A stretch of DNA of 64,000 nucleotides from Halorientalis sp. LT38. Lineage in GTDB: Archaea; Halobacteriota; Halobacteria; Halobacteriales; Haloarculaceae. A program made the translations under genes and the position numbers. The notes below the pieces were generated by a model. It was not told the origin of the DNA, ran no database searches, and saw nothing but the letters and a program-made list of their open reading frames with translations. Each line of letters begins with the position of its first letter. Within the stretch, counting starts at the first letter, position 1. Positions 5,000-32,758 of this stretch are shown piece by piece. The DNA lies in contig NZ_JAYEZN010000001.1 of assembly GCF_037031225.1 (NCBI RefSeq), forward strand, positions 1,240,001 to 1,304,000. The letters run 5' to 3'.

Positions 5000-5237
5000 T
5001 AACAGAGTAGTTGTAGCCGACCCAAGATATAATTTTAAATCCATAGTTCAGGTGCTGAATGTGTCCCAACACTGTCCTTTGAGAGATTGAGCTAAGATTG
5101 GCTAACCAAGTGTTCACAAACGAATTGCCTCAGCAATCACGATAGGTGTCTTTCCTCAATGTTGAAACGCGTCACTTATTCAGCAAATGTTTATTGATGA
5201 ATATGACAACATATAGATTCGACGTGCGATAATTGTT

Positions 5238-6062: not shown

Positions 6063-6336
6063 ACTTGCCCTAAATTTAGATTTTAGCTGTCAAATATTAA
6101 GTCATTGGATATCGGGATAGGGTTTGAGAGGTCAGGTTTTGTCTCGGCAGAGAACGACTTGTCCGGTAAGCTAACTGAATTCTGAATCAGACTCGATTAA
6201 TATGCTCTTTCGTCTCCTAAGTACCTATGATCTGGAATCAACGGTTGAAATGAAGCCATCGTCAAGCTGACTTCAAACCCGCATTCGTCGCCTGCGATTC
6301 CCGTCATGATGTTCCCTTGTCGGGCGACTCCGTTTT

Positions 6337-7284: not shown

Positions 7285-7328
7285 ATTCGTTTATCTAATC
7301 AGTCAGGCTAAAAAACCTACCATCTATA

Positions 7329-8258
7329 ATGTCTCATGTGACACCGACGGCCTCCGTAATAGTTCCAACCTATTACCGGAACGACGCCCTCGAAGATGCA
7401 CTCGAGAGCGTCCACCAACAGACACTTCCTCAATCTGAGATCGAAATTATTGTCGTCGATGGATCAGAAGATGATCAAAACGGTCGATCCATAGCAGAGC
7501 AATACGGTGCGGACTATTATTGTCCAACAGATGATCCAGGTCTCGCAGGCTGTCGAGATATTGGAATCGAAGCCGCAATGGGGGATTATATTCGATTACT
7601 CGACGACGATGATATGTTGATAGAAGATGCGATTGAGTCTCAGATCGATCTCTCGAAGTCGAAAGACTGTGGCGTAGTCTACGGTGGAATCGAATGGGAG
7701 AATGGACATCAGGTTCTCCCGGATACTGCTATCAAGGGAGATGTTCTTCGATATGCACTTTCGTTCCAAATGGCACCCTGTATTCCCTCTACCCTTCTCG
7801 TCGAACGGTCGTGTTTCGAGGAAATGCCGCTGCTAGAGTCCCTTCCCAGCGACGATCATGGAATGATGATCGAACTGGCAAAAGTGGCCGATTTTGACTT
7901 CATTGCCGATGTTGTAATAAAACGCGGCGGGGGAGATGAAGGTCTTGGCTCAGCCTCAAGAACCGTGAAAAACCGATTATCGACCATCGAGTCTTACGAA
8001 TCCTTGTACGAAGAGTATCCAGAGACGAAACGCAAAGCACTCGGCTATACTAATCTACTGGCTGCCCAATCGGAACTCAACGACGAAAAATGGTCGAAGT
8101 CTGCGATTTTCGATGCCTGGCGAGCGTTCTATTACTATCCAACTCTTGAAACAGGCGGGTTTGCTCTTGCTAGTATCGGTGGGCGACCGCTTCGGGATTT
8201 TGCTCGAAGAGTATACATGTCTTTCCAGTCTGACAACCACCGAGGGAAGATAGCATGA
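7329..8258 (+). CDS. Family 2 glycosyltransferase
   Basis: A 309-residue GT-A glycosyltransferase. The N-terminal ASVIVPTYYRNDALEDALES block, IIVVDGSEDDQN and the metal-binding DDDD cluster (YIRLLDDDDMLIEDA, about residues 94-108) place it in GT2. It faces away from the pyruvyltransferase-like gene and is followed after about 100 bases by the flippase on the same strand. Base composition is AT-rich at its start and moves toward the genome average near its end. The sugar and acceptor cannot be predicted. Confidence 0.8.
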   Translation: MSHVTPTASVIVPTYYRNDALEDALESVHQQTLPQSEIEIIVVDGSEDDQNGRSIAEQYGADYYCPTDDPGLAGCRDIGIEAAMGDYIRLLDDDDMLIEDAIESQIDLSKSKDCGVVYGGIEWENGHQVLPDTAIKGDVLRYALSFQMAPCIPSTLLVERSCFEEMPLLESLPSDDHGMMIELAKVADFDFIADVVIKRGGGDEGLGSASRTVKNRLSTIESYESLYEEYPETKRKALGYTNLLAAQSELNDEKWSKSAIFDAWRAFYYYPTLETGGFALASIGGRPLRDFARRVYMSFQSDNHRGKIA

Positions 8259-8356
8259 AGTATATTTTATCTGATTGATGTCGAACCGTGTGAGTCCCAC
8301 ACATAATATAGTTAATACCGACAATATATTGCTGCAGGAATGTCGAATTCCGATTA

Positions 8357-9892
8357 ATGTCTGAGGCGTCCGAAGAAGAGCAATCAGTCACTGATTCTCT
8401 TTCCACAGTATTTTCGGGTGGCTTACTCGTCTCAGCGGGAAAAGTCGTCGCTCTAGGCCTTGGATTTCTCACACAGGTCGCGATGGCACGTCTGCTGGCT
8501 GAAGGGGCATATGGACAGGTCGTCCTTACACTTTCCGTGATCAGTGTCGCTGGATTAGTGGCTAAACTCGGATTGGATAGTGGAGTCACGAGAAAGTATC
8601 CGCACCACGAAGGTGAGCCAGCGGAAGCGCTCGGTGTCGTCCGTTCAAGTCTTTTTATCGCAGGGATCTCGGGAGTTGCAGTCGGTTGTCTCGTATTCGT
8701 GTTAGCACCATTTATTGCTCAAAGGATTTTCAATGAACCGTCGCTAACGGTCCTGTTCCGTATTGCAGCAGTAATAATCCCATTTAATGCACTCAGCTGG
8801 GTCGCCGTTTCGTTAGCCCAAGGTGCGAGGAATGCCCGACCACATACATACGTAAAACAGCTGTTCCAGCCAATTGTTCGGTTCCTCGCTATCTCTGGTC
8901 TCTTGATTGGGGGGTTTGGGGCTGCCGGCGCAATAGCGGGTCAGACCACTGCCTTGGTTCTGGCAGCCATACTGGCACTTCTTCTCCTACACCGTAGTCT
9001 TCCAACGTTCGACACTACGCCGGTCCCCATGCACAAATCACTGCTTACGTTTTCCATTCCACTTTTAGCAGTTCAGGGGATGGGCTTTCTGAACACGAAC
9101 GTCGACATCTACATGGTAGGCTACTTTCTGGCGTCGTCCGATCTCGGGATCTACAACATCGCGCTGCAGATCGGAAATCTGGTGACTGCACTGCTATCTA
9201 CGGCTGGGTTCCTGCTGCCGCCGATGTTGACTCGGTTGCAGAAGAACGGCCAGACGGCCGAAATGCGGCGAACCTATCAGGTGCTCACGAAGTGGATGGT
9301 CGTTCTCATTCTACCGGGTGCAGTCGTTCTGTTTTTCGCCCCCGAACTGGTCATCGGCCTGTTGTTCGGGGAGAGATACGTCCCCGGAGTGACGGCGCTC
9401 CGGATTCTCCTGATCGGAAAAGTAGTTGCTATCGTTATGGGTCTGAACACGCAGGCATTGATCGCACTGGGTGAGAACCGATTTGTCTCGTATCTGGTGT
9501 TCTTCCAGACTGTAGTCAACGTGATTGTCAACTACTCACTAATTCCGATCATCGGAATTGAGGGTGCGGCGATCGGAATGATGGTAAGTGCGATACTTGG
9601 CGACGTGGTGGGTGTTGGTATTCTATACAGAGAGTACGAAGTGCACCCGCTTACGAAAGCTATCCTCGGCCCAGTGGGAGCGGTCTGTGCTGTAGCAGTG
9701 CTCGGCTACGCTCTCGTACAGGCAGCTAACCTACCGACGTACTTCGTTGTCGTTATCGTCGGTATCGCTTACGTCCCGATCGTTGCAACACTCGCCCCAG
9801 AACCGGAAGACGAGCAGTTACTGACGCGGGTCGAGGACCGAACGGGCTACGAGCTCACGTTCGTCCGGCGGGCGTTTCGGTTGGTCGGGTAG
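8357..9892 (+). CDS. Oligosaccharide flippase (Wzx/AglR-like)
   Basis: A 511-residue polytopic membrane protein with about 12-14 hydrophobic helices, matching the polysaccharide-biosynthesis MOP superfamily. The N-terminal helix block (LSTVFSGGLLVSAGKVVALGLGFLTQVAMARLLAEGAYGQV) is the family hallmark. It would move lipid-linked glycan from the cytoplasmic to the outer face of the membrane. The start follows an AT-rich stretch with TATA-like runs (about 8300-8335). The 3' end overlaps the convergent DUF2206-like gene by 38 bases, so both C-termini share DNA. The function is firm at family level and fits the surrounding glycosyltransferases. Confidence 0.85.
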   Translation: MSEASEEEQSVTDSLSTVFSGGLLVSAGKVVALGLGFLTQVAMARLLAEGAYGQVVLTLSVISVAGLVAKLGLDSGVTRKYPHHEGEPAEALGVVRSSLFIAGISGVAVGCLVFVLAPFIAQRIFNEPSLTVLFRIAAVIIPFNALSWVAVSLAQGARNARPHTYVKQLFQPIVRFLAISGLLIGGFGAAGAIAGQTTALVLAAILALLLLHRSLPTFDTTPVPMHKSLLTFSIPLLAVQGMGFLNTNVDIYMVGYFLASSDLGIYNIALQIGNLVTALLSTAGFLLPPMLTRLQKNGQTAEMRRTYQVLTKWMVVLILPGAVVLFFAPELVIGLLFGERYVPGVTALRILLIGKVVAIVMGLNTQALIALGENRFVSYLVFFQTVVNVIVNYSLIPIIGIEGAAIGMMVSAILGDVVGVGILYREYEVHPLTKAILGPVGAVCAVAVLGYALVQAANLPTYFVVVIVGIAYVPIVATLAPEPEDEQLLTRVEDRTGYELTFVRRAFRLVG

Positions 9893-12221
9893 AAGCGTTC
9901 GTCCGATTGAACGACGGTTTGTGGTAGATATGGTTGTACCCGCTGGTGTAGATTTGGTTGCCGTCGGTGAACTCACTCATATTCTTCCGATAGAAGTTGA
10001 ACTTGTAGCCGATCGGGAACCCACCCAGATCCGTGTTCCGTGGCTGCAGTACCAGATAGCTGTTCGACGGAACGTCTGTTTGGTTCATCTGAATCGGTAC
10101 GTACCCGAAGGTACCGTTCGGAGCGGCAGCCGTGATAGAACCACGATAGAAGTCGAGTTGGTTCTCGACGGTTATATCAGCGTAAGTCGCTTCACCTGGA
10201 GGAATTTTATTTCCAACCCAGGCGTGAGACTGAATGTTACATGGGACGCACTTGGTCGTCCGGAGGCGAAGCGGAGGGTTCTCGCTCTGTTCCAATCTGT
10301 GCTCACTGAGACTGTTACTCGGCGCCACGTCGTGGGTGACGGTCTCGGAGACGAATCCAATGTTGAGCAACAGGAAGACCGCCAACAGTACTGCCAGGGC
10401 GTGGATCGCCACGCTACCGGACGGCCACGGGACCCACCGCGATAACCGACCGATTCGCCGACCGAACCACCGCCCAGCCCCAGCCAGTTCCCGGACGCCG
10501 ACGACGGCGAAGGGGACGGCGAAGACGAAGATGATCATCATCACTCTGGCGACGGCGAAGGCGTTCCCGGAGGGCAGCAGCGATCCGATGAACATACTGA
10601 AGAAACCGGTACCGACCGCGAGGAATCCGGGATCGACGCGCTGGTCCCGGAAGACGACGAGCCTGATCGCCGTGGCCGCGATGCCGATCGCCATCAGCAG
10701 GCCGAAAACGACGTAGAGGTACTTCGAGATCGTGATCGCCTGTGCCTGATAGGACTGCTGGAAGCTCGTCGCTGCACTGCCGGTTACCTGCGTGTACAGC
10801 ACGCCGTACATGGCGTCGAGTACCTTCCGGGGGAGCGTGGCGAACTTGGCACCCTTCGCCGTGTACAGGTACCAGCTGATAGCCAGTGCGGCGTAGAATC
10901 CAATGAATGATGGCCGGAGGATCGACGGCGTCTCCAGATCGAGGTCGGCTTCGGACGTTCCGAACCACTCCGCCGGCGCTACTCGCCTGACTTGCTCGGA
11001 GATGGTGGTCGAAATGCCAAACCGGAACAGCAACTGTAGCGTCTTGAACGCGACGGCACCGACGACGAGCGCGAACATGACGACGTACGCCGTTCCGTAG
11101 TGTGAGACCGCGATACCGAATCCGAAAGCGAGCAGCGAAACGTGCTGCGTCCGTGGCGACAGTCGGTCGGTGCTAAACGCCAGCCCAAGTAACGCGAGGA
11201 AAATGACGGGCGTTGCAGCCCGGCCGGCAGTCGGATACAGGACGTAAAACGAGTACGACGAGACGAAGATGAAGACCGAGAGGAGAGCGGCTCTCGGAGA
11301 AAAGTACCGTCGGAACATCTCGTAGAGCGTGACGGGCAGAAACGACACGAGAAGCGGGTTCACGAGATTCCACTCGACTTCGATCGGCAGCCCAGTCACG
11401 ACCGCATACGAGGGGAAGAGGACACCGTTAGCGAGCAACGAACCGACGCCCGCGCCGTAGTTAGGAATCCAGCGCCCCTGCTCCATCGTGATCTGTGGCA
11501 GCGGCTGCGTAAAGGTATAGAACTGAATGACACGGCCGTGGTACAGGAGGGCGAGCGAGACACACCAGATGACCAGCGGGAAGTACCAGCTCTCGTCGCT
11601 GAAGGCGACGATACACACCGGAAGGAGGGCGATCACGAGCACGAGAGCCAGCAGTATCGAGTTGGTGCCGGTCTGGTGGTAATAGACCGATCCCAGAACG
11701 CTCAGGAACGGCAGCAGCAACAGCCCGAGCGTGACCGGGCTCACAAATTGGTCTCGCTCCAGGACCAGTGTGATATCGCCGTCGGATACCGCTGCACCGA
11801 GAGCAGCGAATCCGATGTAGCTCAGGGACAGGACAGGGAGTTCGATGACGCGAGCAATTCCGACTTCAGGAAGGACGATGCTCGCCACAGCGCCGACGAG
11901 CATGATCGAGATTAGACTGAGGCCGAACGCAAAGCACGCTGTAGTCGCGACCGATTCATCGGGATATCCGAGAACGACCAGGACGATCAGTCCTGGAACG
12001 AACGTGAGAAACACGATACCGAGGAGTTCCCGAAGGAGCGGAACGCTCCAGACGTAGGTTTCGACGACGGAAATCCCGTTGATCAGACCGACGAATGCGA
12101 CTGTCACCAACAGAAGATTCGTCCCGGTAAACCGGACTACCAGACTGTCCGCATCGAGTCGAACCGGGAGCGCGGACGCTATCGACGGCAGCCCATCGTC
12201 GAGCGCTGTGATCTCGCTCAT
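9855..12221 (-). CDS. Large polytopic membrane protein, DUF2206-like; candidate glycan transferase or polymerase
   Basis: This 788-residue protein has roughly 15-18 predicted membrane helices in the first 620 residues and a 150-residue extracellular C-terminal domain with four Cys-poor beta stretches and several N-x-S/T sequons. The layout resembles GT-C type enzymes and DUF2206 proteins found in archaeal glycan clusters. An acidic residue pair near the first extracellular loop, expected for GT-C catalysis, is not obvious, so the enzyme role is inference. It is the last gene of the six-gene minus-strand operon, overlapping the upstream glycosyltransferase by four bases. Alternatives are a Wzy-like polymerase or an O-antigen-ligase analogue. 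Confidence 0.6.
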   Translation of the reverse strand: MSEITALDDGLPSIASALPVRLDADSLVVRFTGTNLLLVTVAFVGLINGISVVETYVWSVPLLRELLGIVFLTFVPGLIVLVVLGYPDESVATTACFAFGLSLISIMLVGAVASIVLPEVGIARVIELPVLSLSYIGFAALGAAVSDGDITLVLERDQFVSPVTLGLLLLPFLSVLGSVYYHQTGTNSILLALVLVIALLPVCIVAFSDESWYFPLVIWCVSLALLYHGRVIQFYTFTQPLPQITMEQGRWIPNYGAGVGSLLANGVLFPSYAVVTGLPIEVEWNLVNPLLVSFLPVTLYEMFRRYFSPRAALLSVFIFVSSYSFYVLYPTAGRAATPVIFLALLGLAFSTDRLSPRTQHVSLLAFGFGIAVSHYGTAYVVMFALVVGAVAFKTLQLLFRFGISTTISEQVRRVAPAEWFGTSEADLDLETPSILRPSFIGFYAALAISWYLYTAKGAKFATLPRKVLDAMYGVLYTQVTGSAATSFQQSYQAQAITISKYLYVVFGLLMAIGIAATAIRLVVFRDQRVDPGFLAVGTGFFSMFIGSLLPSGNAFAVARVMMIIFVFAVPFAVVGVRELAGAGRWFGRRIGRLSRWVPWPSGSVAIHALAVLLAVFLLLNIGFVSETVTHDVAPSNSLSEHRLEQSENPPLRLRTTKCVPCNIQSHAWVGNKIPPGEATYADITVENQLDFYRGSITAAAPNGTFGYVPIQMNQTDVPSNSYLVLQPRNTDLGGFPIGYKFNFYRKNMSEFTDGNQIYTSGYNHIYHKPSFNRTNASTRPTETPAGRT

Positions 12222-21992: not shown

Positions 21993-22037
21993 GAGGAAAC
22001 CAATCACTAGTTGTCACGAGAACGGGACTGGGTTCAC

Positions 22038-23960
22038 ATGGGAAGAACGGACGAGACACGGCGTGAATCCGGGGCCAGAGCGGGCGGTTCGCGACGCGGG
22101 GGGCCGGCTGAGGAGCTGGTCGTCGACCCGGCGGCGGGCGCCGAGAGCGAGCCCATCGTCGTCGCGCTGGTCGACGACAACCCCGACTGGCTGTCGATGC
22201 AGGCGAAACTCTTAGAGCGTCGCGACGACCGGTTCGCGGTCGAGGCGACCACCGATCCCCTGACGGTGACCGACACGGTCGACGCGGTCGACTGCGTCGT
22301 CAGCGACTACGACATGGGTCCGCTGGACGGCCTCGACCTGCTATCGCGGGTCCGGGAAGCGCGCCCGACGATCCCCTTCATCCTCACGACGGGCCGGGGC
22401 GACGAGTCGGTCGCGAGCCGGGCCATCTCCGCGGGCGTGACCGACTACGTCGTCAAGGAACCGGGCACCGACCAGTCGGCAGTGCTCGCGGCCCGCATCC
22501 GCAAAGCGGTCACCAGACAGCGGACGGAGCGCCGACTGGCCGAGAGCCGGCAGCGTTTCGCGGAACTGTTCGAGGCGATCCCCGAACCCGTCGCCATCGC
22601 CGACGCGGACGGGCATATCGAGTCGACGAACCCCGCCTACGAGGCGACCTTCGGAGATATCGATCGGCTCCCCGCCGCGGTCCGCGACGCGCCGCTGGGC
22701 GAGCAGTGCGAACTCGAGTGCCAGACGACCGAGGGCCGGCAGGTGTTCCTCCACCGCGGGGCGCGCCTGACCGGTGCCGACCGCCGCTGTCACACCTTCA
22801 CGACTATCACGGCCCGTGCCGAGCGGGAGGCCGCCCGCGAACTCGAACTGGCGACGCGCGAGGGCGTCCGCGAGGCGCTGCTCTCGGCGTCGACCCGTAG
22901 CGGGCTCGAACGGGCCTTCTGCGAGCGACTTTCCGCCGTCCGCGACGACGCGCTCGTCTGGATCGGCGACCACGACGCGGACGGCTCGCCCGTCGTCCGC
23001 GAGGCGGCCGGGCCCGCCACTGCCTACCTCGACGCGGTGCGGGCGGGGGCCGCGGCCGACCCCGGGGTGCGCGCGCTCGAGACCCGGGAGCCCGTCTTCG
23101 CCGCGGCCCCGGACCTCCCGGACGCCGCGGCCGAGACGTCGATCGCTGCGGGCGGCGCGATCCCCCTGCGCCGCGACGGTTTGCCTTTCGGCGTCGTCGC
23201 CGCGTACACGACCGAGCCCGGAGCCTTCGACGCCGGCTGGCGGGAGATGCTCTCGGATCTCGCCGACCAGCTGGCGTACGCCATCGCGTTCGTCTCGTTC
23301 CAGCGGGCGCTGTTCAGCGGCGAACGCGTCGCGGTTACGCTCACGCTCCCCGCCGAGTCCTACCCCGTCACCGACCTGTTCGACGCACCGGTCACCGTCG
23401 ACGGGACCGTCCCCTACGACGACGAGACGGTCCAGCACGTCGTCTCGATCCCGGACCCCGTCGACCCGGTGCCGGATCCGGAGTCGGTCCCGGGCGTCGA
23501 GGCGGTGCGCCGCGTGGGCAGCGACGGGGACGCGGTGCGACTGGGCGTCGTCCTCTCGCGGCCGACCGTCGACTCCCTGCTCGTCGACCGCGGCGGTCGC
23601 ATCGAGTCCGTCGCGCTCCGCGACGACCGGCTCGCAGTCGTCGCCTCCTTCCACGCGCGCGACGACGTGCAGGGGGCCGTCAGGTGCGTGACCGACGCCC
23701 TCCCCGAGGCCTCCGTCGCCTCGTATCGCACCGTCGACCGCCTCGACGAGGATCGCGGGGCGGACCCGACCGCCGCCCTGACCGAGCGCCAGCGGACGGC
23801 CCTGGAGACGGCCTACCGCGGCGGCTACTTCGAGCGTCCCAAACGCTGCAACTCCGAGGAACTCGCCGAGACCCTGGGCGTCAGCCGGTCGACGTTCCTC
23901 CAGCATCTCCGGGCCGCCCAGCGGAAACTGTTCGACGCGGTGCTCGACTCGGCCCGGTGA
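22038..23960 (+). CDS. Bacterio-opsin-activator-like multidomain regulator (receiver-PAS-GAF-Bat-HTH_10)
   Basis: A roughly 640-residue regulator. Domains in order: a receiver domain (about 40-150, with IVVALVDDNPDWL, the phosphoacceptor VVSDYDMGPLDG, and a VKEPG loop); a short PAS domain (about 170-270); a GAF-like domain (about 280-420); the Bat-type beta-rich domain (about 430-560); and a C-terminal HTH_10 helix-turn-helix (LTERQRTALETAYRGGYFERPKRCNSEELAETLGVSRSTFLQHLRAAQRKL). Such proteins respond to light or redox and activate transcription. There is no bacteriorhodopsin gene in the window, so the targets lie elsewhere. The HTH_10 call is very strong. Confidence 0.85.
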   Translation: MGRTDETRRESGARAGGSRRGGPAEELVVDPAAGAESEPIVVALVDDNPDWLSMQAKLLERRDDRFAVEATTDPLTVTDTVDAVDCVVSDYDMGPLDGLDLLSRVREARPTIPFILTTGRGDESVASRAISAGVTDYVVKEPGTDQSAVLAARIRKAVTRQRTERRLAESRQRFAELFEAIPEPVAIADADGHIESTNPAYEATFGDIDRLPAAVRDAPLGEQCELECQTTEGRQVFLHRGARLTGADRRCHTFTTITARAEREAARELELATREGVREALLSASTRSGLERAFCERLSAVRDDALVWIGDHDADGSPVVREAAGPATAYLDAVRAGAAADPGVRALETREPVFAAAPDLPDAAAETSIAAGGAIPLRRDGLPFGVVAAYTTEPGAFDAGWREMLSDLADQLAYAIAFVSFQRALFSGERVAVTLTLPAESYPVTDLFDAPVTVDGTVPYDDETVQHVVSIPDPVDPVPDPESVPGVEAVRRVGSDGDAVRLGVVLSRPTVDSLLVDRGGRIESVALRDDRLAVVASFHARDDVQGAVRCVTDALPEASVASYRTVDRLDEDRGADPTAALTERQRTALETAYRGGYFERPKRCNSEELAETLGVSRSTFLQHLRAAQRKLFDAVLDSAR

Positions 23961-24200: not shown

Positions 24201-24791
24201 ATGTCACGATCGCAACTTGCACACGACGGTGCGGCGGCAGACCTGGGCGAGGAGACTCTTGAGTCGCTCGACGAGACGGTCGTCCACGAGGTGCTGAGCA
24301 ACGAGCGGCGACGACGCGTGCTGGGGCTGCTCCGGGAGGACGCGCCGCGCGAGCTGTCCGTCCTGGCCGAGGAGATCGCCACCGCGGAGACCGACCAGCG
24401 ACCGCCGCCGCGGAACAAGCGCAACAGCGTCTACGTCACCCTCCACCAGACCCACCTCCCGAAACTCGACCGCCTCGACGTCGTGGCCTACGATGACCGG
24501 GAGAAGGTGGTCGACCTCGGGCCACGGGCCGAAGACGTCCTCGAATCGAGCGGGGACAGCTCCGACCATGGCGCCGGCGACTCGTCGTCCTGGACCGCGG
24601 CGTACGCGACCCTCGTCGCCCTCGGTCTGTCGGTCGCCGGCGCGAGCGAGTTCGGCCTCCCGCCGTTCGAAGCCGTATCGAGCGGTACCGCGGCCGTCGC
24701 GACGCTCGTCGTCCTCATGGCCGTCCTCGCCTACCGGGTCGGCGCCGCGGGCGTCGGCCTCCCCGCCTCGTTTTTCGAGCGTTTCCGCTAA
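24201..24791 (+). CDS. DUF7344-type winged-helix protein with two membrane helices
   Basis: A 196-residue protein. Residues 20-110 form a winged-helix domain (VLSNERRRRVLGLLRE, LSVLAEEIATAE, RNSVYVTLHQTHLPKLDRLDVVAYDDREKVVDLG), the pattern of the haloarchaeal DUF7344 family. Residues about 130-185 hold two hydrophobic helices, so the DNA-binding part faces the cytoplasm while the protein sits in the membrane. AGGAG lies just before the ATG. It converges on a second DUF7344 gene and precedes the SipW-type surface cluster, so it is a candidate regulator of that cluster. Confidence 0.75.
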   Translation: MSRSQLAHDGAAADLGEETLESLDETVVHEVLSNERRRRVLGLLREDAPRELSVLAEEIATAETDQRPPPRNKRNSVYVTLHQTHLPKLDRLDVVAYDDREKVVDLGPRAEDVLESSGDSSDHGAGDSSSWTAAYATLVALGLSVAGASEFGLPPFEAVSSGTAAVATLVVLMAVLAYRVGAAGVGLPASFFERFR

Positions 24792-24818: not shown

Positions 24819-25352
24819 TCAGTCCGCCAGCGCGCGCAACACGACCCAGCGGCGCGACCAGAGCTGGTAGGTCGTCGACGCCCCGAGAACGAGCAAAAAG
24901 AGAATCAGCAGCGGCAGCGCTCCGATGGCACCGAGCAGCGCGACCTCGAGTTCGGCGGCCAGCAGGGCGAGCAGGGCGACGGTCGTGAGCGTCCGGTAGT
25001 ACCCCGCCCAGGTGATGCCGTACGGGGTGATCACCTCCATGTAGAGGTCGACCTCGCTCGCGGGGTCGTCGAGGCGAACCGTCTTCCGGTCGCTGTCGTA
25101 GACGACGATCCCCTCCCGGTCGAGTTTCGGGAGATGCGTCTGGTGCAAGGAGTTGTAGACGCTCTGCCGGAGATTCGTCGGCGGCGGGGACTCCCCCGCC
25201 TCGGACTCGGCGACCGACACCGACAGCTCCCGCACGGACATCGACCCCACCGACTCGCGGAGCAGTTCCAGTACCGCCCGCCGACGCGAGTTGCGCAGGA
25301 TGTCGTGAATCTCCTCGTCCGACACCGTGCGTTCGCGACTGAGTACCCCCAT
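24819..25352 (-). CDS. DUF7344-type winged-helix protein with two membrane helices
   Basis: A 177-residue relative of the convergent gene. The DNA-binding part is EIHDILRNSRRRAVLELLRE, MSVRELSVSVAE and RQSVYNSLHQTHLPKLDREGIVVYDSDRKTVRL, nearly identical in pattern to its partner. Two hydrophobic helices follow (WAGYYRTLTTVALLALLAAELEV and ALPLLILFLLVLGAS). The start at 25352 (MGVLSRERTVSD) is preferred over 25367. It is divergent from the first SipW-type surface gene, an arrangement typical of a local regulator. Confidence 0.75.
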   Translation of the reverse strand: MGVLSRERTVSDEEIHDILRNSRRRAVLELLRESVGSMSVRELSVSVAESEAGESPPPTNLRQSVYNSLHQTHLPKLDREGIVVYDSDRKTVRLDDPASEVDLYMEVITPYGITWAGYYRTLTTVALLALLAAELEVALLGAIGALPLLILFLLVLGASTTYQLWSRRWVVLRALAD

Positions 25353-25655
25353 CGTTCTCCACCCCATCTCGGTGGGCCTGTTGCTTAGTTATCAACTCGC
25401 TTGAGCTACAGGACCGGGAGGAACCCCCTCCCGGTCGTTCTCGGCCCGCTCTAACCGGTGGTTCAACCGTTCGATGGTGGATCGACGTCGATCAAACCAC
25501 TCGTTCAACGATTCCGAGCCGGTCGCAAGTACGGCTAACGAGTCGTTGAACGGCGTGGAATCGGCCGTTTGCACAGCGAGGTGGCAATTATCTAACGGGG
25601 TATAGTTCGTGGGGTCGGTCGAGTCCGCACCGGTCACCGGGCGGGCGAATACACA
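25353..25655. promoter_or_regulatory. Intergenic control region upstream of the surface-protein cluster
   Basis: No convincing gene is seen in these 303 bases. It carries three GTTCAAC-type sites: GGTTCAACCG at about 25460-25469, CGTTCAACGA at 25502-25511, and its exact reverse complement TCGTTGAACG at 25543-25552. The last two extend to a 12-of-13 inverted match. They could bind one of the DUF7344 regulators. An AT-rich CAATTATCT near 25586-25594 may be the TATA box of the first surface gene. Confidence 0.45.
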
Positions 25656-26435
25656 ATGTCAGAGGAACACATCGGACTGTCCCGCCGGCGCCTGCTCGCC
25701 GGACTCGGCACCGTCGGCGTCGCGTCCGCGGGTGCGGGGCTGGGGACCAGTGCACTGTTCAGCGACGAGGAATCGTTCGAGGACAACACGATCACGGCCG
25801 GGACGCTCGACATGGAAGTGACGGCGACGGTCGAGGCGGCCAGCGAGTACTGGAGCGAGGCCGTCGACCTCAGCGCGACGGCGGACGGCGAGGCCGTCTC
25901 CGGCATCTCGATCGACGACGTCAAGCCCGGCGACTGGGGGATCATCTGCTTCGACATCTCCATCGCTGACAACCCGGGCTACGTCAACGTCAGCACGGCC
26001 GATCTCGTCTCCGAGGAGAACGGCTACACCGAGCCCGAACCGGAAGACGACAACGGCGAGGGCGAACTCGAGGAGAACATCGTCGCGGAGATCTACGGCG
26101 AGTTCGACGAGTCCGTCAGTTCCGAGGAACCCCGGGACTACCTGAGCGATCTGGACTCGACGACGCCCGCTGGCACGACCCTCGAAGAGGCGTTCTCGAC
26201 CTACGAGGGCGGCGTCACCCTCGGCGGCAGCGAGGACCCCACCGAAGTCGGCGACGGCGAGGACGCCGTCGAGTTCTGCCTGCTGCTCGAGATCCCCGAG
26301 ACGGTCGGCAACGAGATCCAGGGGGACTCGCTGACCTTCGATCTCCTGTTCGAGTCCGAGCAGGTCCGCAACAACGACGATCCCTTCGACAGCGGGACGC
26401 CGGACAGCACGCCGAGTGGCACGCCCGGTACCTGA
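25656..26435 (+). CDS. SipW-type signal-peptide surface protein 1 (TasA/CalY-like)
   Basis: A 259-residue secreted protein. The N-terminus has the haloarchaeal SipW-cognate signal pattern: LSRRRLLAGLGTVGVASAGAG, then SALFSDEESFEDNTITAGTLDMEV. Cleavage is expected near the ALFSD. The mature part is acidic and beta-rich with DVKPGDWGIICFDISIADNPGYVNV, and it ends in a block ETVGNEIQGDSLTFDLLFESEQVRNN shared with the next two genes. In bacteria, proteins of this type assemble into extracellular fibres; that role here is inference. A Thr/Pro-rich tail (SGTPDSTPSGTPGT) follows. Confidence 0.7.
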   Translation: MSEEHIGLSRRRLLAGLGTVGVASAGAGLGTSALFSDEESFEDNTITAGTLDMEVTATVEAASEYWSEAVDLSATADGEAVSGISIDDVKPGDWGIICFDISIADNPGYVNVSTADLVSEENGYTEPEPEDDNGEGELEENIVAEIYGEFDESVSSEEPRDYLSDLDSTTPAGTTLEEAFSTYEGGVTLGGSEDPTEVGDGEDAVEFCLLLEIPETVGNEIQGDSLTFDLLFESEQVRNNDDPFDSGTPDSTPSGTPGT

Positions 26436-26499
26436 TCAGGACAGCCCCGTCTCCGCCGCTCTCGGATCACCCACGTCGGCGCTCGTCGCCTCCCGCGAC

Positions 26500-26544
26500 G
26501 ACGGCGGTTCGACTCCGCCGGTGGGCCTCGCCCGGACCCCGGGC
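26500..26544 (+). promoter_or_regulatory. Duplicated leader element: T-arm-like hairpin plus second hairpin
   Basis: Arms GGCGG and CCGCC enclose TTCGACT, the exact geometry of a tRNA T-arm. It lies in a 26-base stretch (26500-26525) repeated without change at 27429-27454. A second hairpin follows, GCCCGG and CCGGGC around ACC (26530-26544), just before the ATG at 26552. It may control translation or processing between the cistrons. Confidence 0.6.
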
Positions 26545-26551
26545 ACAAACC

Positions 26552-27382
26552 ATGACACAGGACGACACCCGCGGCACGCGGCTCTCGCGCCGGTCGCTAC
26601 TGGCCGGTCTCGGGACCGTCGGCGTCGCCAGCGTCGGCGCCGGACTCGGGACGAGCGCGCTGTTCAGCGACGAGGAATCGTTCGACGACAACCAGCTCAC
26701 CGCCGGCGCGCTGAACATGCGCGTCAGCGTGGACAACGTGGTCCACAGCACCGATATCGTGCGTGACAACACGACGATCACGCCCAAGGACACAGCCGAC
26801 GGCCAGGCGGTGACCGTCTCGGTGGCCGACCTGAAGCCGGGCGACTGGCTCATCCTCGAGTGGAACGCCGAGGTCGTCGGCAACCCCGGCCACGTCCAGG
26901 TCACCTCCGTCGACGACGACTACGTGAACGCCGAGGGTGCCAATCCCGAATCGGAGACCGACACCGCCTCGCCCGGGGACCTGGGCGACGCCCTGCTCTC
27001 GACGGTCTGGGCGACCTACGACAATCTGGGTGACGACCGGCAGTACCTCGAAGGCCTCGATTCCACGACCGACAACGCGAACAGCGGCCTGGCCGCCTAC
27101 GAGGAGCCGACGGACCTCGACGGCACCACGCCCGGTGGCGCGCACTACACGACGATGAACGAGGCCCACGCCGTCTACGAGACGGGCGTCACCCTGCGGG
27201 ACGGCAACGGCGATCCGATGGCGGTCGAGACCAACGGCACCGGCAACGCGGCGTGGTTCTACCAGTGCCTCGAGCTACCCGTGGGTGTCGGCAACGAGAT
27301 CCAGGGCGACGAGCTGACGTTCACGATGCGGTTCGACGCCGAGCAGGTCCGCAACAACCCGACGCCGTTCGACGGGTCCTGA
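26552..27382 (+). CDS. SipW-type signal-peptide surface protein 2
   Basis: A 276-residue paralogue of the gene before it. It starts TRLSRRSLLAGLGTVGVASVGAG, followed by SALFSDEESFDDNQLTAGALNMRV, and shares LKPGDWLILEWNAEVVGNPGHVQV and the C-terminal GVGNEIQGDELTFTMRFDAEQVRNN. The middle part is unrelated in length and sequence, with a segment rich in Asn, Asp and Thr. It lies 116 bases downstream of gene 1, and its leader contains the duplicated hairpin unit. Signal type and operon place it as a secreted, probably fibre-forming or cell-surface protein. Confidence 0.7.
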   Translation: MTQDDTRGTRLSRRSLLAGLGTVGVASVGAGLGTSALFSDEESFDDNQLTAGALNMRVSVDNVVHSTDIVRDNTTITPKDTADGQAVTVSVADLKPGDWLILEWNAEVVGNPGHVQVTSVDDDYVNAEGANPESETDTASPGDLGDALLSTVWATYDNLGDDRQYLEGLDSTTDNANSGLAAYEEPTDLDGTTPGGAHYTTMNEAHAVYETGVTLRDGNGDPMAVETNGTGNAAWFYQCLELPVGVGNEIQGDELTFTMRFDAEQVRNNPTPFDGS

Positions 27383-27428
27383 GGTGCGACGCCCACGCTG
27401 GCACCTCGACCGCGCACACGCGGTCGCG

Positions 27429-27468
27429 GACGGCGGTTCGACTCCGCCGGTGGGTTTCCCCGCGAGGG
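27429..27468 (+). promoter_or_regulatory. Second copy of the T-arm-like leader element
   Basis: The same 26 bases as at 26500-26525 occur here, followed by CCCC GCGA GGGG, a hairpin with a GNRA-type tetraloop, a few bases before the ATG at 27476. The hairpin sequences after the shared 26 bases differ between the copies while the hairpin itself is kept, which suggests that structure is selected. Confidence 0.6.
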
Positions 27469-27475
27469 GGTACAC

Positions 27476-28942
27476 ATGACCGACGACAACATTCAGCTTT
27501 CGCGGCGACGCGTCCTGGCCGGCCTCGGTACGGCGGGCCTCGCCAGCGCCGGTGCCGGCCTCGGCACGAGCGCGCTGTTCAGCGACACGGAATCGTTCGA
27601 GAACAACACCCTGACCGCCGGCACGCTCGACCTGAAGGTCGACTGGCAGCAGATCTACGCCGGCCCGACCGAACAGCCGGAGTTCGTCAACGCCCACCCC
27701 GACCACGACGGCGACGGCGAGCAGTCCCTGCAGGTTCAGGACGGCGTGGTGCGCTACAGCGACGAGAGCCGCAACATCGTCGACCACCTCACCTGCCAGA
27801 ACCTCAGCGGCGACTACGAGGAGAACTTCGGCGACCAGGCGAACCTGGTGTCGCTCTCGGACGTCAAGCCCGGTGACGAGGGCGAGATCACGTTCAGCCT
27901 CCACCTCTGTGACAACCCCGGCTACATCTGGCTCACGGCCGACGACTTCAGCCAGTCCGGCGGCGCGACCACGGAGCCGGAGGAGGCCGAACTCGACGAC
28001 GGTGCGACGGACGACGGCGAACTCGCCGAGAACACCTTCGTCGAGATCTGGTACGACGAGGACTGCGACAACCAGCTCGACCGCAGCAGCGAGGAGGAGG
28101 GCCAGGAACTGGAGGTCGCCCTCGTCAGCGACGTCTCCGGTTCGATGACCGACTCGATCGGCGACCTGCAAGTGGCAGCGACGAACTTCGTCGACCAGCT
28201 CGCCGCGCCCGACGAGGCGGCCGCCGTCTCGTTCGCGAGTAGCGCGAGCGTCGACCAGCCGCTGACCACCGACTACCAGGCGGTCAAAGACGAGATCAAC
28301 AACTACACGGCGAACGGCTCGACGAACATGGACGGCGGAATCGACGAAGCCGCCGACGAGTTGCTGAACGGGACCAACGCGACCGCGGGCGCGAACAAGG
28401 TCATGATCGTCCTCGGCGACGGCACGCCGGACTCCGAGTCAGCGACCGCGGCGGCCGCCACCGCGGCGAAGGACGACGGCATCCGCGTGTTCACCATCGC
28501 CCTCGGCAGCAACGTCAACCAGACGTTCATGGAGAGCATCGCCTCGAGTCCGGACGACGCCTACGTCGCCCCGAGCGCTTCGGACCTGCAGAGCATCTAC
28601 GCGGACATCGCCCAGGTCGTGACCTCGGGCGAGCAGGTCATCCTCGGCGTGGGCGACGGCGAACACGACTCGCCCGTCACGCTCGCCGAAGCGATGTCCA
28701 TCATCGAGAACAACGACGGGATGGTGCCCCTCGACGGCACCGGCGAGATGGGCTACGGGGCAGGCGACACCGCAGAGGAGCGCGACTGCTTCGCGGCCCA
28801 GACCAGCCACTGCATCGGCGTGCGCTGGTGGGTCCCGCTCGAGGTCGGCAACGAGATCCAGGGCGACGAAGTGAGCTTCGACCTCGGCTTCTACACCGAG
28901 CAGTGCCGCAACAACGACGGCGCCCGCTCGGTCCAGAGCTGA
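27476..28942 (+). CDS. SipW-type surface protein 3 with inserted von Willebrand A domain
   Basis: A 488-residue secreted protein. Residues 1-50 carry the SipW-type signal (LSRRRVLAGLGTAGLASAGAG ... ALFSDTESFENNTLTAGTLDLKV). Residues 50-205 are the same fibre-type fold as its neighbours (DVKPGDEGEITFSLHLCDNPGYIWL, EIWYDEDCDNQLD). A vWA domain occupies about 211-380 with a complete MIDAS: DVSGSM near 219, NGSTNMDGGI near 280 and LGDGTPDS near 313. The original fold then resumes and ends EVGNEIQGDEVSFDLGFYTEQCRNN. The vWA is therefore an insertion into a loop, not a fusion at an end. Metal-dependent adhesion is the likely role. Confidence 0.75.
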   Translation: MTDDNIQLSRRRVLAGLGTAGLASAGAGLGTSALFSDTESFENNTLTAGTLDLKVDWQQIYAGPTEQPEFVNAHPDHDGDGEQSLQVQDGVVRYSDESRNIVDHLTCQNLSGDYEENFGDQANLVSLSDVKPGDEGEITFSLHLCDNPGYIWLTADDFSQSGGATTEPEEAELDDGATDDGELAENTFVEIWYDEDCDNQLDRSSEEEGQELEVALVSDVSGSMTDSIGDLQVAATNFVDQLAAPDEAAAVSFASSASVDQPLTTDYQAVKDEINNYTANGSTNMDGGIDEAADELLNGTNATAGANKVMIVLGDGTPDSESATAAAATAAKDDGIRVFTIALGSNVNQTFMESIASSPDDAYVAPSASDLQSIYADIAQVVTSGEQVILGVGDGEHDSPVTLAEAMSIIENNDGMVPLDGTGEMGYGAGDTAEERDCFAAQTSHCIGVRWWVPLEVGNEIQGDEVSFDLGFYTEQCRNNDGARSVQS

Positions 28943-28963
28943 ACCACCACGAGCGACGCACTC

Positions 28964-28968
28964 GTTTT
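28964..28968 (+). terminator. T-tract after the vWA surface gene
   Basis: A short TTTTT run lies 22 bases after the stop. Archaeal termination uses such tracts, but the run is short and transcription probably continues in part. Confidence 0.3.
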
Positions 28969-29138
28969 TCGCGATCCCGCTCCGATCGGCACGTAGGGCA
29001 CCGAGTCCAGCGATTCGGCGCGCGTTTTCCACCCACCCGTTTCGCCGCGAATCCGGTTTAACCTCGCGCTAAACCGGCTCAAACGAGGGAATAGATATGA
29101 TCGAACCGTCCTGAATATCGGTCGAGTAACAGGTGGCT

Positions 29139-30137
29139 ATGGGGAACGATTCGATCTCACGCAGACAGGTGCTCCGCGCGGTCGCGGGGGCGGGGGTGCT
29201 GGGGGCCGGGGTCGGCGGGACGGCCGGGATGCTGACCGACGGCGAGTCCGTCGACGGCGTCTCGGTCGCCGCCGGCAGCCTGGACCTCGAGACCTGCTGG
29301 ACCCACGACGACTGCGACCGACCGCTGTCCATCGTGGTCGGCCCCGACGCCGGCTCGACCGGCTCGGAGACGGTCGAGTACCGACTCCCCGAGTACACCA
29401 ATCCCGCCTATCTCCACGTCCGCACGACCTGTCCGCCCGAGGCCTGCGGGCTCGCCGACCGACTCGAACTCACCGTCTCGGACGGACCCTGCGGCCGCGC
29501 CGGCCGGACGCTCGAACGCGGCCGACTCTGTGACGTCCTCTCGGCGCTCCGCGCCGGGACGGCGCTGGCCGATGGCCGTGCAGTGGACGCCGGCGAGACG
29601 CGCTGTCTGGACCTCGAATGGTCGCTCGAGGAATCCCTCGAGGAGGACGCGAGCGTGGAGATCGGCGTCGAGTTCCACGCCACACAGGCGCGCAACGTGG
29701 CGAACGCCGCCGCGGTGGCGCCCTGGGAGGGGGCGACCTGCGCCGTCGACTGCGCGGAGACGAGCGACTGCGACGACCCGCCGACCGGGCGCGATATCAG
29801 CTGGGTCGGATTCTGCGCCGAGTCAGGCACGACCATCCGGGACGAGGATCTCGACTTCGAGGTCGACGGCGACACGCTGACCCTCCAGACGGCCCCCGAC
29901 TCGCTGGCTACGGTCCTGCTGAAACACGGCCCCGCGCTCGACGTCTTCCGCGACGCTGGTCCGGGCACGTTCGTCACCGGAGGGGGCGACGACACGTACG
30001 AGCAGCAGGGGTCCGCATTCCCCGATAGCGAGACGGATCCGCCCCGCTCGAATCCGAGGCCCTGTCCCGGGCGTTCCGGCCTGAAGTACGAGGGGGACTT
30101 CGAGACGCCGAGCGACGGGGGTGATCGCGATGCCTGA
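29139..30137 (+). CDS. Cys-rich SipW-type surface protein 4
   Basis: A 332-residue protein. ISRRQVLRAVAGAGVLGAGVGGTAGMLTDGESVDGVSVAAGSLDLE is a variant of the SipW-type signal: the FSD is replaced by LTD and the spacing is kept. The mature part is unusually rich in cysteine, with pairs such as CWTHDDCD, CPPEACG, CAVDCAETSDCDD and CPGRS, which suggests disulfide cross-links outside the cell. A separate C-terminal beta unit (ISWVGFCAESGTTIRDEDLDFEVDGDTLTL) follows. The ATG at 29139 is preferred to a GTG six bases earlier. It overlaps the signal peptidase gene, so its expression is coupled to it. Confidence 0.65.
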   Translation: MGNDSISRRQVLRAVAGAGVLGAGVGGTAGMLTDGESVDGVSVAAGSLDLETCWTHDDCDRPLSIVVGPDAGSTGSETVEYRLPEYTNPAYLHVRTTCPPEACGLADRLELTVSDGPCGRAGRTLERGRLCDVLSALRAGTALADGRAVDAGETRCLDLEWSLEESLEEDASVEIGVEFHATQARNVANAAAVAPWEGATCAVDCAETSDCDDPPTGRDISWVGFCAESGTTIRDEDLDFEVDGDTLTLQTAPDSLATVLLKHGPALDVFRDAGPGTFVTGGGDDTYEQQGSAFPDSETDPPRSNPRPCPGRSGLKYEGDFETPSDGGDRDA

Positions 30138-31539
30138 GGCGCCCGAGCAACGAGACGAACTGGAGCCACGGGAAGATGTGGAATCGCAGGACGAAACGGT
30201 ATCAGTCGACCGGGCGCGGGCCCGGTTCGCCGACTGGTCGCCCGCCGAGACCGTCTCGGCGTGGACCGCACGGGACGTCCTGCGCGTCCTCGCGGTCGTC
30301 GTGTTCGTCGCCCTGGTCGCGCCGTTCGTGGTGTTCGCGATCCCGCAACTGGCCGGCGCCCAGCACAGTTTCGTCGTGCTCAGCGGGAGCATGGAGCCGA
30401 CCATCGAGACCGGCTCGGTGATCCTGGTCGCGGAGACCGCCCCCGAATCCATCGAGAGCGGCGACGTGATCACCTTCGGCGGCAGCGCGAGCGCGCCCCC
30501 GACGACCCACCGGGTGATCGAAGTCCAGGAGACCGGCGACGGCCGTGAGTTCGTCACCAAGGGGGACAACAACGAGAACGCGGACCGCGGGACCGTCCAG
30601 GCCGCCGATCTCGTCGGCAGGGTGCCGTCCGTCGACGTGCCCGGCGTCGGGCCGATCCTCTTCTCGATCCCGCTCGTGGGTCACTTCATCACCTTCGGCG
30701 GGACGAAACTCGGAATGCTCCTGCTGGTGATCGTCCCATTCGGGCTGCTGGCGGTCGACAGCGCGATCCGGACCGTTCGGTCCGCGGATGCCGGCCGCGC
30801 CGACGGCGGATCGCCCGCGGACCCCCACACCGACCGTGCGGTCGACGACTGGGGCGAGGGACCGCCGTCCGACGGCGACGGCGCCCCGCCCGACCCCTCC
30901 GGCCCCTCGAACGCCTCCGCGTCATCCGATGACGGCGGCCTGACGGTCAGCTCCCTGACGCTCCTGGTGGCCGCGGTGGGGCTTGGCGCCGCCGGCCTCC
31001 TGGCGGGCTGGGTCGGCCTCCGCAACGAGTCGGTCGCCGCAACGACCGTGGGGACCGGCCTGTTCACCGCGGGGCTACTGGCCGGGCTCGTCCTGTACGC
31101 CGACCGCCGTCTCGACGACGGGGAGGACCGGGGGGCGACGCGAGCGCCGGCACCGATCGCCGTCGGACGGGTGCCCGATCGGCTGCGGACGTGGCCGGTG
31201 CTCGAGGTCGACTCGGCGGCGTCGCTCAGAGAGTCGAGCGCGGCCGACGGCTCGGTCGTCGTCCGCGACCCCGACGCCGATCGCCTGTTCCTCTTCCGGG
31301 ACGGCGTGGCCTACACGCCCTGCACCGACGGGACCGGCGACCGCGAGACCGTCGTCGACTACCTCCCGGACCACCTCACCGACGACGGTTCTCCGGACGG
31401 TGACGACGCGGACGGCACCGCCGAGCCGGACTGGAACGAGATCACGGGCCCGCGAGAGGGCGGCGAGGTCGCCGCCTCGAAGCCGCCCGAGACACACGAT
31501 CACGCCCGCAACGGCAACGGAGGCACGGATGACGAGTAG
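30130..31539 (+). CDS. SipW-like signal peptidase I with long C-terminal extension
   Basis: An S26 family protease of about 469 residues. After one N-terminal membrane helix, VVLSGSMEPTI carries the catalytic Ser87 and TTHRVIEV carries His127 in the position where bacterial enzymes have Lys; Ser/His is the archaeal, ER and SipW type. A second helix lies at about 185-210. The rest (about 215-469) is an extension with two further helices, an acidic linker and a soluble domain not needed for catalysis. Its place beside four SipW-type substrates suggests it is their dedicated processing enzyme. It overlaps the gene upstream by eight bases and the one downstream by eleven. Confidence 0.8.
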   Translation: MPEAPEQRDELEPREDVESQDETVSVDRARARFADWSPAETVSAWTARDVLRVLAVVVFVALVAPFVVFAIPQLAGAQHSFVVLSGSMEPTIETGSVILVAETAPESIESGDVITFGGSASAPPTTHRVIEVQETGDGREFVTKGDNNENADRGTVQAADLVGRVPSVDVPGVGPILFSIPLVGHFITFGGTKLGMLLLVIVPFGLLAVDSAIRTVRSADAGRADGGSPADPHTDRAVDDWGEGPPSDGDGAPPDPSGPSNASASSDDGGLTVSSLTLLVAAVGLGAAGLLAGWVGLRNESVAATTVGTGLFTAGLLAGLVLYADRRLDDGEDRGATRAPAPIAVGRVPDRLRTWPVLEVDSAASLRESSAADGSVVVRDPDADRLFLFRDGVAYTPCTDGTGDRETVVDYLPDHLTDDGSPDGDDADGTAEPDWNEITGPREGGEVAASKPPETHDHARNGNGGTDDE

Positions 31540-32758
31540 CCAGCCCCTCCCGCTGCGGACCGTGCTGACGCTCGGGCTGGCGGTCGCACTCGTGTTCGCC
31601 GGCAGCGGCGTGCTCGCGTTCGCCATCGCGAACCCCGAGGGAACCGGCGCGTTCCTCACCGACGGCGAGAACCTGACGGTCAGTTTCAGCGGGACCGCAC
31701 CCGTCGACGGGCTGTCGCTGGGCAATGTGACCGCTTCGAACGCCACCGACGGGAACGCCTCCAGCCCGGACGGCCTCGGGGTGGCCCAGCACGGGGGCGC
31801 CGCCGACAGTTCCGAGAAGAACGATTCGAACGGCAGTAACTCGGCAGACACCGGGTCGATCGGCAACACCTCGGACGCGACCGACGCCGCGAACGGCACG
31901 GACGCGGAGCCCGACGACGACGGTAACCAGACCGACGACGCTCCGTCCGGGGACGGCGAGGAGGCGTCGAAGCCGGTCGGCCTGCCACGGGCGGTAATCG
32001 GGGACAGCGATGGATCCGAGACGACGCCGACCACTGACTCGCCGGACGATGCCGAGGGCGCAGACGGTGACCAGGCGACCGACTCCGACGACGGACAAGA
32101 TGATGCCCACGAAGGCAGTAACGACGAACCCGTCGACGATGGCGAGACGGCGAGTGACGAGGGAGACACGACGCCCGACGACGGGACCACCGATTCCGAC
32201 ACCGGGTCGACCGAGACCGACAGATCCGGTGACGCGGACGGCAGCGAGACGGCCGATGGAGCCGACGACGGCGGTGACGACACCGACTCCACGGACATTG
32301 GCGACGACACTGGCACGACCGCCGACGATTCGACCACTGACGGAACCACCACTGACAGTACAACCGACGATTCCACCACTGACGATAGCACTTCTTCTGG
32401 CGACACCAGCTCGGACGATTCCACCACTGACGATAGCACTTCTTCTGGCGACACCAGCTCGGACGATTCCACCACTGACGATAGCACTTCTTCTGGCGAC
32501 ACCAGCTCGGACGATTCCACCACCGACGGCAGCACAGACGATTCCACCACCGACGGCAGCACAGACGATTCCACCACCGACGGCAGCACAGACGATTCCA
32601 CCACCGACGGCAGCACAGACGATTCCACCACTGAGGATAGCTCTTCTTCTGGCGACACCACCTCGAACGGCAGCACCACAGATGGGACGACTGACGACAC
32701 CACCACTGACGGCAGCAAAGACGACAGCACCTCGGGCACCGATACCGACGACGGCTAG
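31529..32758 (+). CDS. Acidic Ser/Thr/Asp-rich repeat surface protein
   Basis: A 409-residue secreted protein. One hydrophobic N-terminal segment (VLTLGLAVALVFAGSGVLAFAIA) is followed by EGTGAFLTDGENLTVSF, a further SipW-like cleavage context. The rest is low-complexity, built of D, S, T and G, with several N-x-S/T sequons (NAT, NAS, NGS, NGT), so it is probably heavily glycosylated. The C-terminal half holds tandem repeats of two sizes. No lipobox, transmembrane C-terminus or PGF-CTERM motif is visible, so it may be released or held by ionic contacts. It overlaps the signal peptidase gene and is the last gene of the cluster. Confidence 0.65.
   Translation: MTSSQPLPLRTVLTLGLAVALVFAGSGVLAFAIANPEGTGAFLTDGENLTVSFSGTAPVDGLSLGNVTASNATDGNASSPDGLGVAQHGGAADSSEKNDSNGSNSADTGSIGNTSDATDAANGTDAEPDDDGNQTDDAPSGDGEEASKPVGLPRAVIGDSDGSETTPTTDSPDDAEGADGDQATDSDDGQDDAHEGSNDEPVDDGETASDEGDTTPDDGTTDSDTGSTETDRSGDADGSETADGADDGGDDTDSTDIGDDTGTTADDSTTDGTTTDSTTDDSTTDDSTSSGDTSSDDSTTDDSTSSGDTSSDDSTTDDSTSSGDTSSDDSTTDGSTDDSTTDGSTDDSTTDGSTDDSTTDGSTDDSTTEDSSSSGDTTSNGSTTDGTTDDTTTDGSKDDSTSGTDTDDG
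32366..32509 (+). repeat. Three perfect 48-base tandem repeats
   Basis: Units begin at 32366, 32414 and 32462 with GACGATTCCACCACTGACG and encode a 16-residue D/S/T/G peptide each. The length is a multiple of three, so copy number can change without breaking the frame. The near identity of the copies suggests recent expansion. Confidence 0.85.
32510..32617 (+). repeat. Four 27-base tandem repeats nested after the 48-base set
   Basis: Units begin at 32510, 32537, 32564 and 32591, each starting GACGATTCCACCACCGACGG. The first 12 bases are the same as in the 48-base unit, so the shorter unit probably arose by internal deletion or a new slippage register. All are in frame. Confidence 0.85.

Follow-up and report, generated by a model that had tools for sequence, protein, structure and literature searches.

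Predicted tRNA-like processing sites between the genes of a conserved haloarchaeal TasA-type surface-protein operon

Positions 1,240,001 to 1,304,000 of contig NZ_JAYEZN010000001.1 of Halorientalis sp. LT38 (Halobacteriales; genome of 3.58 Mb in two contigs), a stretch of 64,000 nucleotides (nt) referred to here as the window, contain a cluster of genes for secreted surface proteins together with a signal peptidase of their own. An initial annotation made from the sequence alone had compared this cluster with the bacterial TasA/TapA/SipW system, and every gene that it named is present; the most unusual feature of the locus, which it missed, is the occurrence of transfer RNA (tRNA)-like elements in the spacers between the genes. 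Considered as a whole, the locus is probably a conserved haloarchaeal operon for TasA-type surface proteins in which tRNA-like elements of the type found before 5S ribosomal RNA (rRNA) act as intercistronic cut sites for tRNase Z (and RNase P) and give rise to monocistronic messenger RNAs (mRNAs).

The four secreted proteins are called substrates 1 to 4 here, in gene order, and the two elements in the window lie ahead of substrates 2 and 3 (Table 1). Both spacers carry an identical 23-nt sequence, GGCGGTTCGACTCCGCCGGTGGG, which includes a tRNA T-arm and is found nowhere else in the genome, even when three mismatches are allowed. Both copies fold into an acceptor-type stem, an extra hairpin, and a T-arm, followed by a separate hairpin (z score about -2). 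A full cloverleaf was not recognized, with ARAGORN calling no tRNA in the window, and Rfam gave no match to the spacer elements and no tRNA match at positions 25300 to 29200. When all of the haloarchaeal cluster loci that we collected were scanned for a stem of 5 base pairs (bp) with the loop TTCGANT, 149 distinct contexts were recovered, including a few true tRNAs; nearly all of the copies were on the coding strand, between codirectional substrate genes, and the T-arm was mostly ~30 nt upstream of the next start codon. Across 129 deduplicated loci, the element was present in 116 spacers between substrates and in 8 spacers ahead of the last substrate, was confined to spacers of at least 66 nt, and occurred in 0 of 87 substrate-peptidase junctions. 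Copies before the first recognized substrate gene, possibly within a 5′ leader, were seen in loci L031 (6366), L041 (9583, reverse strand), L092 (4006), L099 (2622), L101 (2265), and L135 (814).

The strand upstream of the T-arm completes the acceptor-type stem, typically as GACCCAC/GTGGGTC, and a GG motif (CTGG, CCGG, or TCGG) lies in the short segment directly after it; many copies have one or more extra hairpins ahead of the T-arm. The consensus consists of stems of 7 and 6 bp with the T-loop TTCGAYT, and the elements therefore have the acceptor-type stem, stacked on a T-arm with a canonical T-loop, that characterizes t-elements. To evaluate the pairing, we used an alignment of 51 short copies (A3) that was not fitted to the structure but whose members had been chosen for pairing, so that covariation by itself is a biased measure. 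In this alignment 96.8% of the cells are paired, and changes on both sides of a pair occur at 10 of the 13 pairs (all 7 of the acceptor stem and 3 of 6 in the T-stem). The covariation score was 0.360, compared with 0.145 for shuffled alignments (0 of 500 shuffles reached the observed value) and 0.04 to 0.12 for slid partners, and RNAalifold returned an identical structure from the element alignment. Because the 51 copies had been selected for pairing, we also ran a motif-only control on 141 copies that were located by searching for GGTTCGANTCC downstream of a substrate stop codon. Pairing in the outer T-stem was 0.963 when each copy was paired with its own strand and 0.839 with swapped partners (maximum of 500 swaps, 0.865), and 33 matches to the motif elsewhere had much less pairing. 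The result for the acceptor strand was modest, with at least six Watson-Crick pairs in 86 of the 141 copies versus ~54 after swapping, which reflects the single consensus common to most acceptors and the wide upstream range searched.

A covariance model built from spacer copies only (R1) was run on 146 whole genomes and had matches in 66 of them. There are three hits in the Halorientalis sp. LT38 genome, namely, the two spacers and positions 2355841 to 2355884, which end one base before a 5S rRNA gene identified with Rfam (locus L169). Five 5S elements in L166, L167, and L169 are matched by R1, each ending one base before the 5S gene, tandem 5S genes included, so that a single model covers both the spacer copies and the element before 5S rRNA. 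No ordinary tRNA is recovered among the hits in this genome, which disfavors the elements as plain tRNA copies. We read 80 R1 hit regions and treated hits of 28 to 32 bits without 5S or substrate context as chance; by our reading, hits of at least ~33 bits adjoin substrate-type genes or directly precede 5S rRNA, with ~7 exceptions (L165, L177, L179, L180, L183, L190, and L204), two of which precede open reading frames (ORFs) resembling those of surface proteins. Published work identifies the 5S element of Haloferax volcanii as a substrate of tRNase Z, and RNAs have been flanked by such t-elements so that RNase P and tRNase Z release them in vivo (PMC3296008, PMC4326828, PMC7714728).

Beyond the substrate clusters and 5S genes, a 47-bit element in L165 (3468-3513) lies ~96 nt ahead of an ORF resembling an S-layer-type surface protein, and R1-type elements precede small ORFs of unknown type, possibly viral or plasmid borne, in L177 (1552-1594), L183 (1482-1524), L211 (1474-1515), and L204 (1534-1577). 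The position of these few elements, ahead of S-layer-like ORFs and of small ORFs that could not be placed, suggests that the signal has a wider use.

From these features we infer a pathway of cleavage, control of mRNA stability, export, and fiber assembly. Within the polycistronic mRNA, each element would fold with its acceptor-type stem stacked on the T-arm, where the GG motif could dock on the T-loop; tRNase Z would then cleave immediately 3′ to the acceptor stem, with RNase P acting on its 5′ side. By analogy with 5S rRNA, the predicted tRNase Z cuts fall at the end of the model, at 26528/26529 and 27457/27458. After each cut, the following gene would be left on an mRNA of its own whose short leader opens with a stem-loop, giving every subunit its own mRNA stability and translation, and this 5′-terminal hairpin could be expected to shield the transcript. 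Export of the proteins would then depend on their Tat-like signals, after which the SipW-type peptidase of the cluster would process them for assembly at the surface. The predicted leaders of genes 2 and 3 in the window are 23 and 18 nt long, and the lengths of 96 predicted leaders are mostly 15 to 35 nt; most of these leaders start with a pyrimidine and C-C-C, and 82 of the 96 contain a hairpin of at least four Watson-Crick pairs, versus ~21 after shuffling. In L152, L153, L154, L157, and L170 the element ends a few bases before the ATG, such that cutting would produce a nearly leaderless mRNA. Most H. volcanii transcripts are leaderless (PMC3986360). On balance, we lean toward an archaeal form of tRNA punctuation of mRNAs, in which 5S-type t-elements between cistrons would direct tRNase Z and RNase P to divide surface-protein operons into monocistronic mRNAs that are hairpin capped and separately controlled, thereby setting the stoichiometry of the subunits.

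Several observations weigh against such processing. The stack of acceptor stem and T-arm is 13 bp, one longer than in ordinary tRNAs. At least one element is present in 69 of 110 multisubstrate loci, leaving 41 without, and no element was recognized in the paralogous cluster of this genome, indicating that cleavage is not needed in all such operons. Further tRNA-like structures in H. volcanii, described by Hoelzle et al. in 2012, reportedly went uncut in vitro in the examples tested. In ~10 loci, moreover, the element is ahead of the first recognized gene, where intercistronic cutting is not needed, and this leaves room for a role in the leader. That position, the near-constant spacing to the start codon, and a leader hairpin ending in a G-run close to the start would also suit an uncut element that acts in cis on translation (ribosome recruitment, reinitiation, or a sensor) before each substrate gene, in concert with the small hairpin ahead of the start codon. 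We regard this as unlikely, since the match at 5S rRNA is a processing signal without a translated gene behind it, and the spacing is equally well explained by a fixed leader after cutting. A different proposal holds that substrate genes are shuffled as cassettes through the elements, which would be DNA recombination sites (attC-like, or like the tRNA ends recognized by integrases). It draws on the arrays of related genes with an element before or after each, on the variation in gene number between genomes, and on the fact that tRNA ends are common integrase targets. It is nevertheless very improbable given that copies within one cluster differ in both stems while pairing is kept (the five copies in L081 have different acceptor or T-stem sequences) and that the elements are tied to one gene family and to 5S rRNA rather than to unrelated cassettes. 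We give the least credence to the view that the elements are functionless relics of a tRNA or 5S leader that had been duplicated and was then spread as the genes were duplicated in tandem; both window copies do share the identical 23-nt core and sit between paralogues with 45% identity, but compensatory changes across many genera and constant placement are unexpected of debris. Processing of the polycistronic mRNA at 5S-type elements is accordingly the explanation that we prefer.

Table 1. Genes and predicted RNA features of the cluster, in positions of the window
Feature	Positions	Strand	Basis
DUF7344 winged-helix protein; likely membrane-bound regulator	24201-24791	+	PF24035 E=1.6e-26; C-terminal hydrophobic segment 158-176
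Second DUF7344 protein, divergent to the substrate genes	24819-25367	-	PF24035 E=1.1e-27; C-terminal hydrophobic segment
Substrate 1: TasA-like, Tat-like RR and SipW-type signal	25656-26435	+	TIGR04088 above cut-off; Peptidase_M73/camelysin; AlphaFold2 model versus TasA, Z 9.0
tRNA-like element 1	26468-26528	+	R1, 42.6 bits; fold (acceptor-type stem 26470-26474/26521-26525, extra hairpin 26483-26501, T-arm 26502-26520, loop TTCGACT)
Predicted processed 5′ leader of gene 2, hairpin 26530-26544	26529-26551	+	Fold
Substrate 2: TasA-like, 45% identity to substrate 1	26552-27382	+	TIGR04088 above cut-off; BLAST
tRNA-like element 2	27390-27457	+	R1, 42.4 bits at 27413-27457; manual acceptor at 27390; fold (acceptor-type stem 27391-27396/27450-27455, extra hairpin, T-arm 27431-27449)
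Predicted processed 5′ leader of gene 3, with hairpin	27458-27475	+	Fold
Substrate 3: TasA-like with inserted vWA domain, residues 214-375	27476-28942	+	PF00092 E=1.9e-20; TIGR04088 above cut-off; flanks align to substrate 1
Substrate 4: Cys-rich, predicted jellyroll core and C-terminal beta domain; last substrate ahead of the peptidase	29139-30137	+	AlphaFold2 model; top match TasA
Sec11/SipW-type signal peptidase with two-helix C-terminal extension	30130-31539	+	TIGR02228 above cut-off; 15 relatives aligned; hydrophobic segments
Acidic D/S/T-rich repeat protein, N-terminal hydrophobic segment, SipW-like FLTDGE motif	31529-32758	+	Composition; tandem repeats

The genes for substrate 4, the peptidase, and the acidic protein overlap, and substrates 1 to 3 are set apart by spacers of 116 and 93 nt. 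A terminator 3′ of substrate 3 was considered as well; a pattern scan finds none there, and the stretch folds no better than shuffled sequence. A second cluster with identical gene order is present in the same genome (G000:C1:1999000-2012000, L007), and the order recurs in other haloarchaeal loci, for which reason we consider the gene set to be more than a chance neighborhood. This paralogous cluster (L007, 3076-12858) comprises two DUF7344 genes, substrates that include two vWA proteins, a Cys-rich protein, a peptidase, and an acidic protein, with short spacers. Matches to TIGR04088 were found in 109 of 293 Halobacteriales genomes and 51 of 87 genera, and the recurring layout consists of divergent DUF7344 genes, several substrates (often one or two of them with vWA), a Cys-containing last substrate, and a C-terminally extended peptidase; a shorter version has one or two substrates and a peptidase of ~190 amino acids. 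The search of other haloarchaea that the initial annotation had proposed therefore found the set conserved, and the combination of vWA and Cys-rich substrates, which had seemed unfamiliar, is real but belongs to a common haloarchaeal cluster, not one peculiar to this genome. A SipW-type substrate paired with a Sec11-like peptidase was also observed in candidate-phyla bacteria (Moraniibacteriota, Levybacteria, Gottesmanbacteria, and others; L142, L144 to L147, and L150).

A SipW-type signal had been assigned to four proteins; those of substrates 1 to 3 score above the TIGR04088 cut-off, while that of substrate 4 falls below it, though the predicted core of this protein is a TasA-type jellyroll. 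PF12389 is likewise above its cut-off for substrates 1 to 3, and substrate 4 had no family hit in profile searches of the window proteins. Just ahead of the SipW-type junction, an RR or KR motif resembling a twin-arginine translocation (Tat) signal, which TasA is not known to have, is present in 337 of the 354 distinct proteins that have such a junction. The vWA domain of substrate 3 has a DVSGS motif similar to a metal ion-dependent adhesion site, and the stretches flanking it align by BLAST to the two ends of substrate 1; the domain is thus best viewed as an insertion in a TasA-like protein. Substrate 4 contains 12 Cys residues in 332 amino acids, so both the vWA protein and the Cys-rich protein of the initial annotation stand.

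AlphaFold models of substrates 1 and 4 (mean predicted local distance difference test [pLDDT] values of 71.7, with a higher core, and 71.0, respectively) were compared with the PDB. The first Foldseek hit of substrate 1 was TasA (probability 1.00, E 2e-3), and the top three matches by VIA-align were TasA chains with Z scores of 9.0, 8.8, and 8.4, with the next unrelated entry at 7.4; the model of substrate 1 thus has the TasA-like jellyroll predicted for a member of the TasA/camelysin family. TasA was also first by VIA-align for substrate 4 (Z 7.7; CanA scored 6.8), but unrelated jellyrolls are close behind without clear separation, which makes this assignment weaker. Taken together, the models support a TasA-like reading of the substrates at the level of predicted fold, and the comparison with TasA/TapA/SipW holds for fold and gene content. 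The NCBIfam TafA model gave a subthreshold match only, with nothing relevant in a literature search, and a search of the literature on SipW in haloarchaea or Haloferax found no paper. Some features would fit an adhesive or protective coat, with subunits that share a common fold, in place of TasA-like fibers: TasA is not generally known to have vWA insertions or C-terminal domains rich in Cys, the sequence match to archaeal bundling proteins is weak (AbpX, E=0.03), and unrelated jellyrolls score close to TasA for substrate 4. Such a coat is a possibility that we entertain but doubt, given that TasA chains stand well apart from the other structural matches in the comparison for substrate 1 and that the peptidase and SipW-type signals are encoded alongside.

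The peptidase matches TIGR02228 with E=3e-30, above the cut-off, and the Bacillus SipW model NF046067 with E=2e-27, below the cut-off of that model. Its SGSMEP, THR, and GD motifs are invariant across the 15 aligned relatives, and the C-terminal extra region of ~250 residues, as initially described, has two further hydrophobic segments and can be aligned in relatives. Residues ~360 to 400 form a short C-terminal domain beyond the two-helix extension that aligns with some relatives only (L037, L058, and L060). A signal peptidase I of the endoplasmic reticulum/archaeal type next to three substrates with TIGR04088 signals points to a SipW-dependent secretion cluster. The acidic protein is composed of 26% D+E and 1% K+R and contains near-exact 48-nt and 27-nt repeats, in keeping with the repeat-rich acidic protein first annotated, and an acidic ORF is found 3′ of the peptidase in the paralogous cluster too.

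The two proteins annotated as membrane-bound winged-helix regulators both match PF24035 and have a hydrophobic C-terminal segment; their genes lie almost wholly outside position 25353, at which the cluster had been taken to begin. The genome has 26 DUF7344 matches, 4 of which sit beside its two clusters. The DUF7344 genes of the window have as their neighbor a large regulator (22011-23960) that combines response-regulator receiver, GAF, BAT, and HTH_10 domains. Elsewhere in the window, at 4001 to 10000, the G+C content drops to 0.48 to 0.52, compared with ~0.66 to 0.70 over most of its length, and may mark an integrated element.

If cleavage at the spacer elements is confirmed, they would provide a defined RNA signal for the processing of archaeal polycistronic mRNAs and would link tRNA processing to the dosage of surface proteins; to our knowledge, few mRNA endonuclease sites are understood in archaea. 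Because the element is short, keeps both its sequence and its structure across relatives, and resembles t-elements that already serve as tools in Haloferax, it can be tested directly. The proteins would form a coherent, conserved haloarchaeal surface system of the TasA type with new parts, namely, the vWA insertion, Tat-like signals, extended peptidase, and DUF7344 regulators.

The cluster resembles tapA-sipW-tasA of Bacillus subtilis in its substrates of predicted TasA fold, SipW-type signals, and clustered Sec11-like peptidase (PMC9674648). The haloarchaeal locus adds Tat-like signals, the vWA insertion, a Cys-rich last substrate, the extension of the peptidase, DUF7344 regulators, the acidic repeat protein, and tRNA-like spacers. 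Jellyroll subunits are shared with the archaeal bundling pili of Pyrobaculum (AbpA/AbpX; AbpX was the best profile hit, albeit a weak one, and 7ueg scored Z 5.5 for substrate 1) and with the CanA cannulae of Pyrodictium, as seen in the match to substrate 4. We know of no vWA or Cys-rich partners of these pili and cannulae. The spacer elements are like the H. volcanii 5S t-element in having an acceptor-type stem, a GG motif, and a T-arm with a TTCGANT loop that are covered by one covariance model; they differ in lying between protein genes, in often replacing the anticodon arm with an extra hairpin, and in being followed by a leader hairpin, and their cutting is predicted. In mitochondrial tRNA punctuation and in MALAT1/mascRNA, tRNAs or tRNA-like structures are excised by RNase P and RNase Z and thereby separate messages. 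The haloarchaeal elements likewise place tRNA-like structures at the borders of messages, where processing is predicted, but they are not true tRNAs, they are archaeal, and they belong mainly to one family of surface-protein operons.

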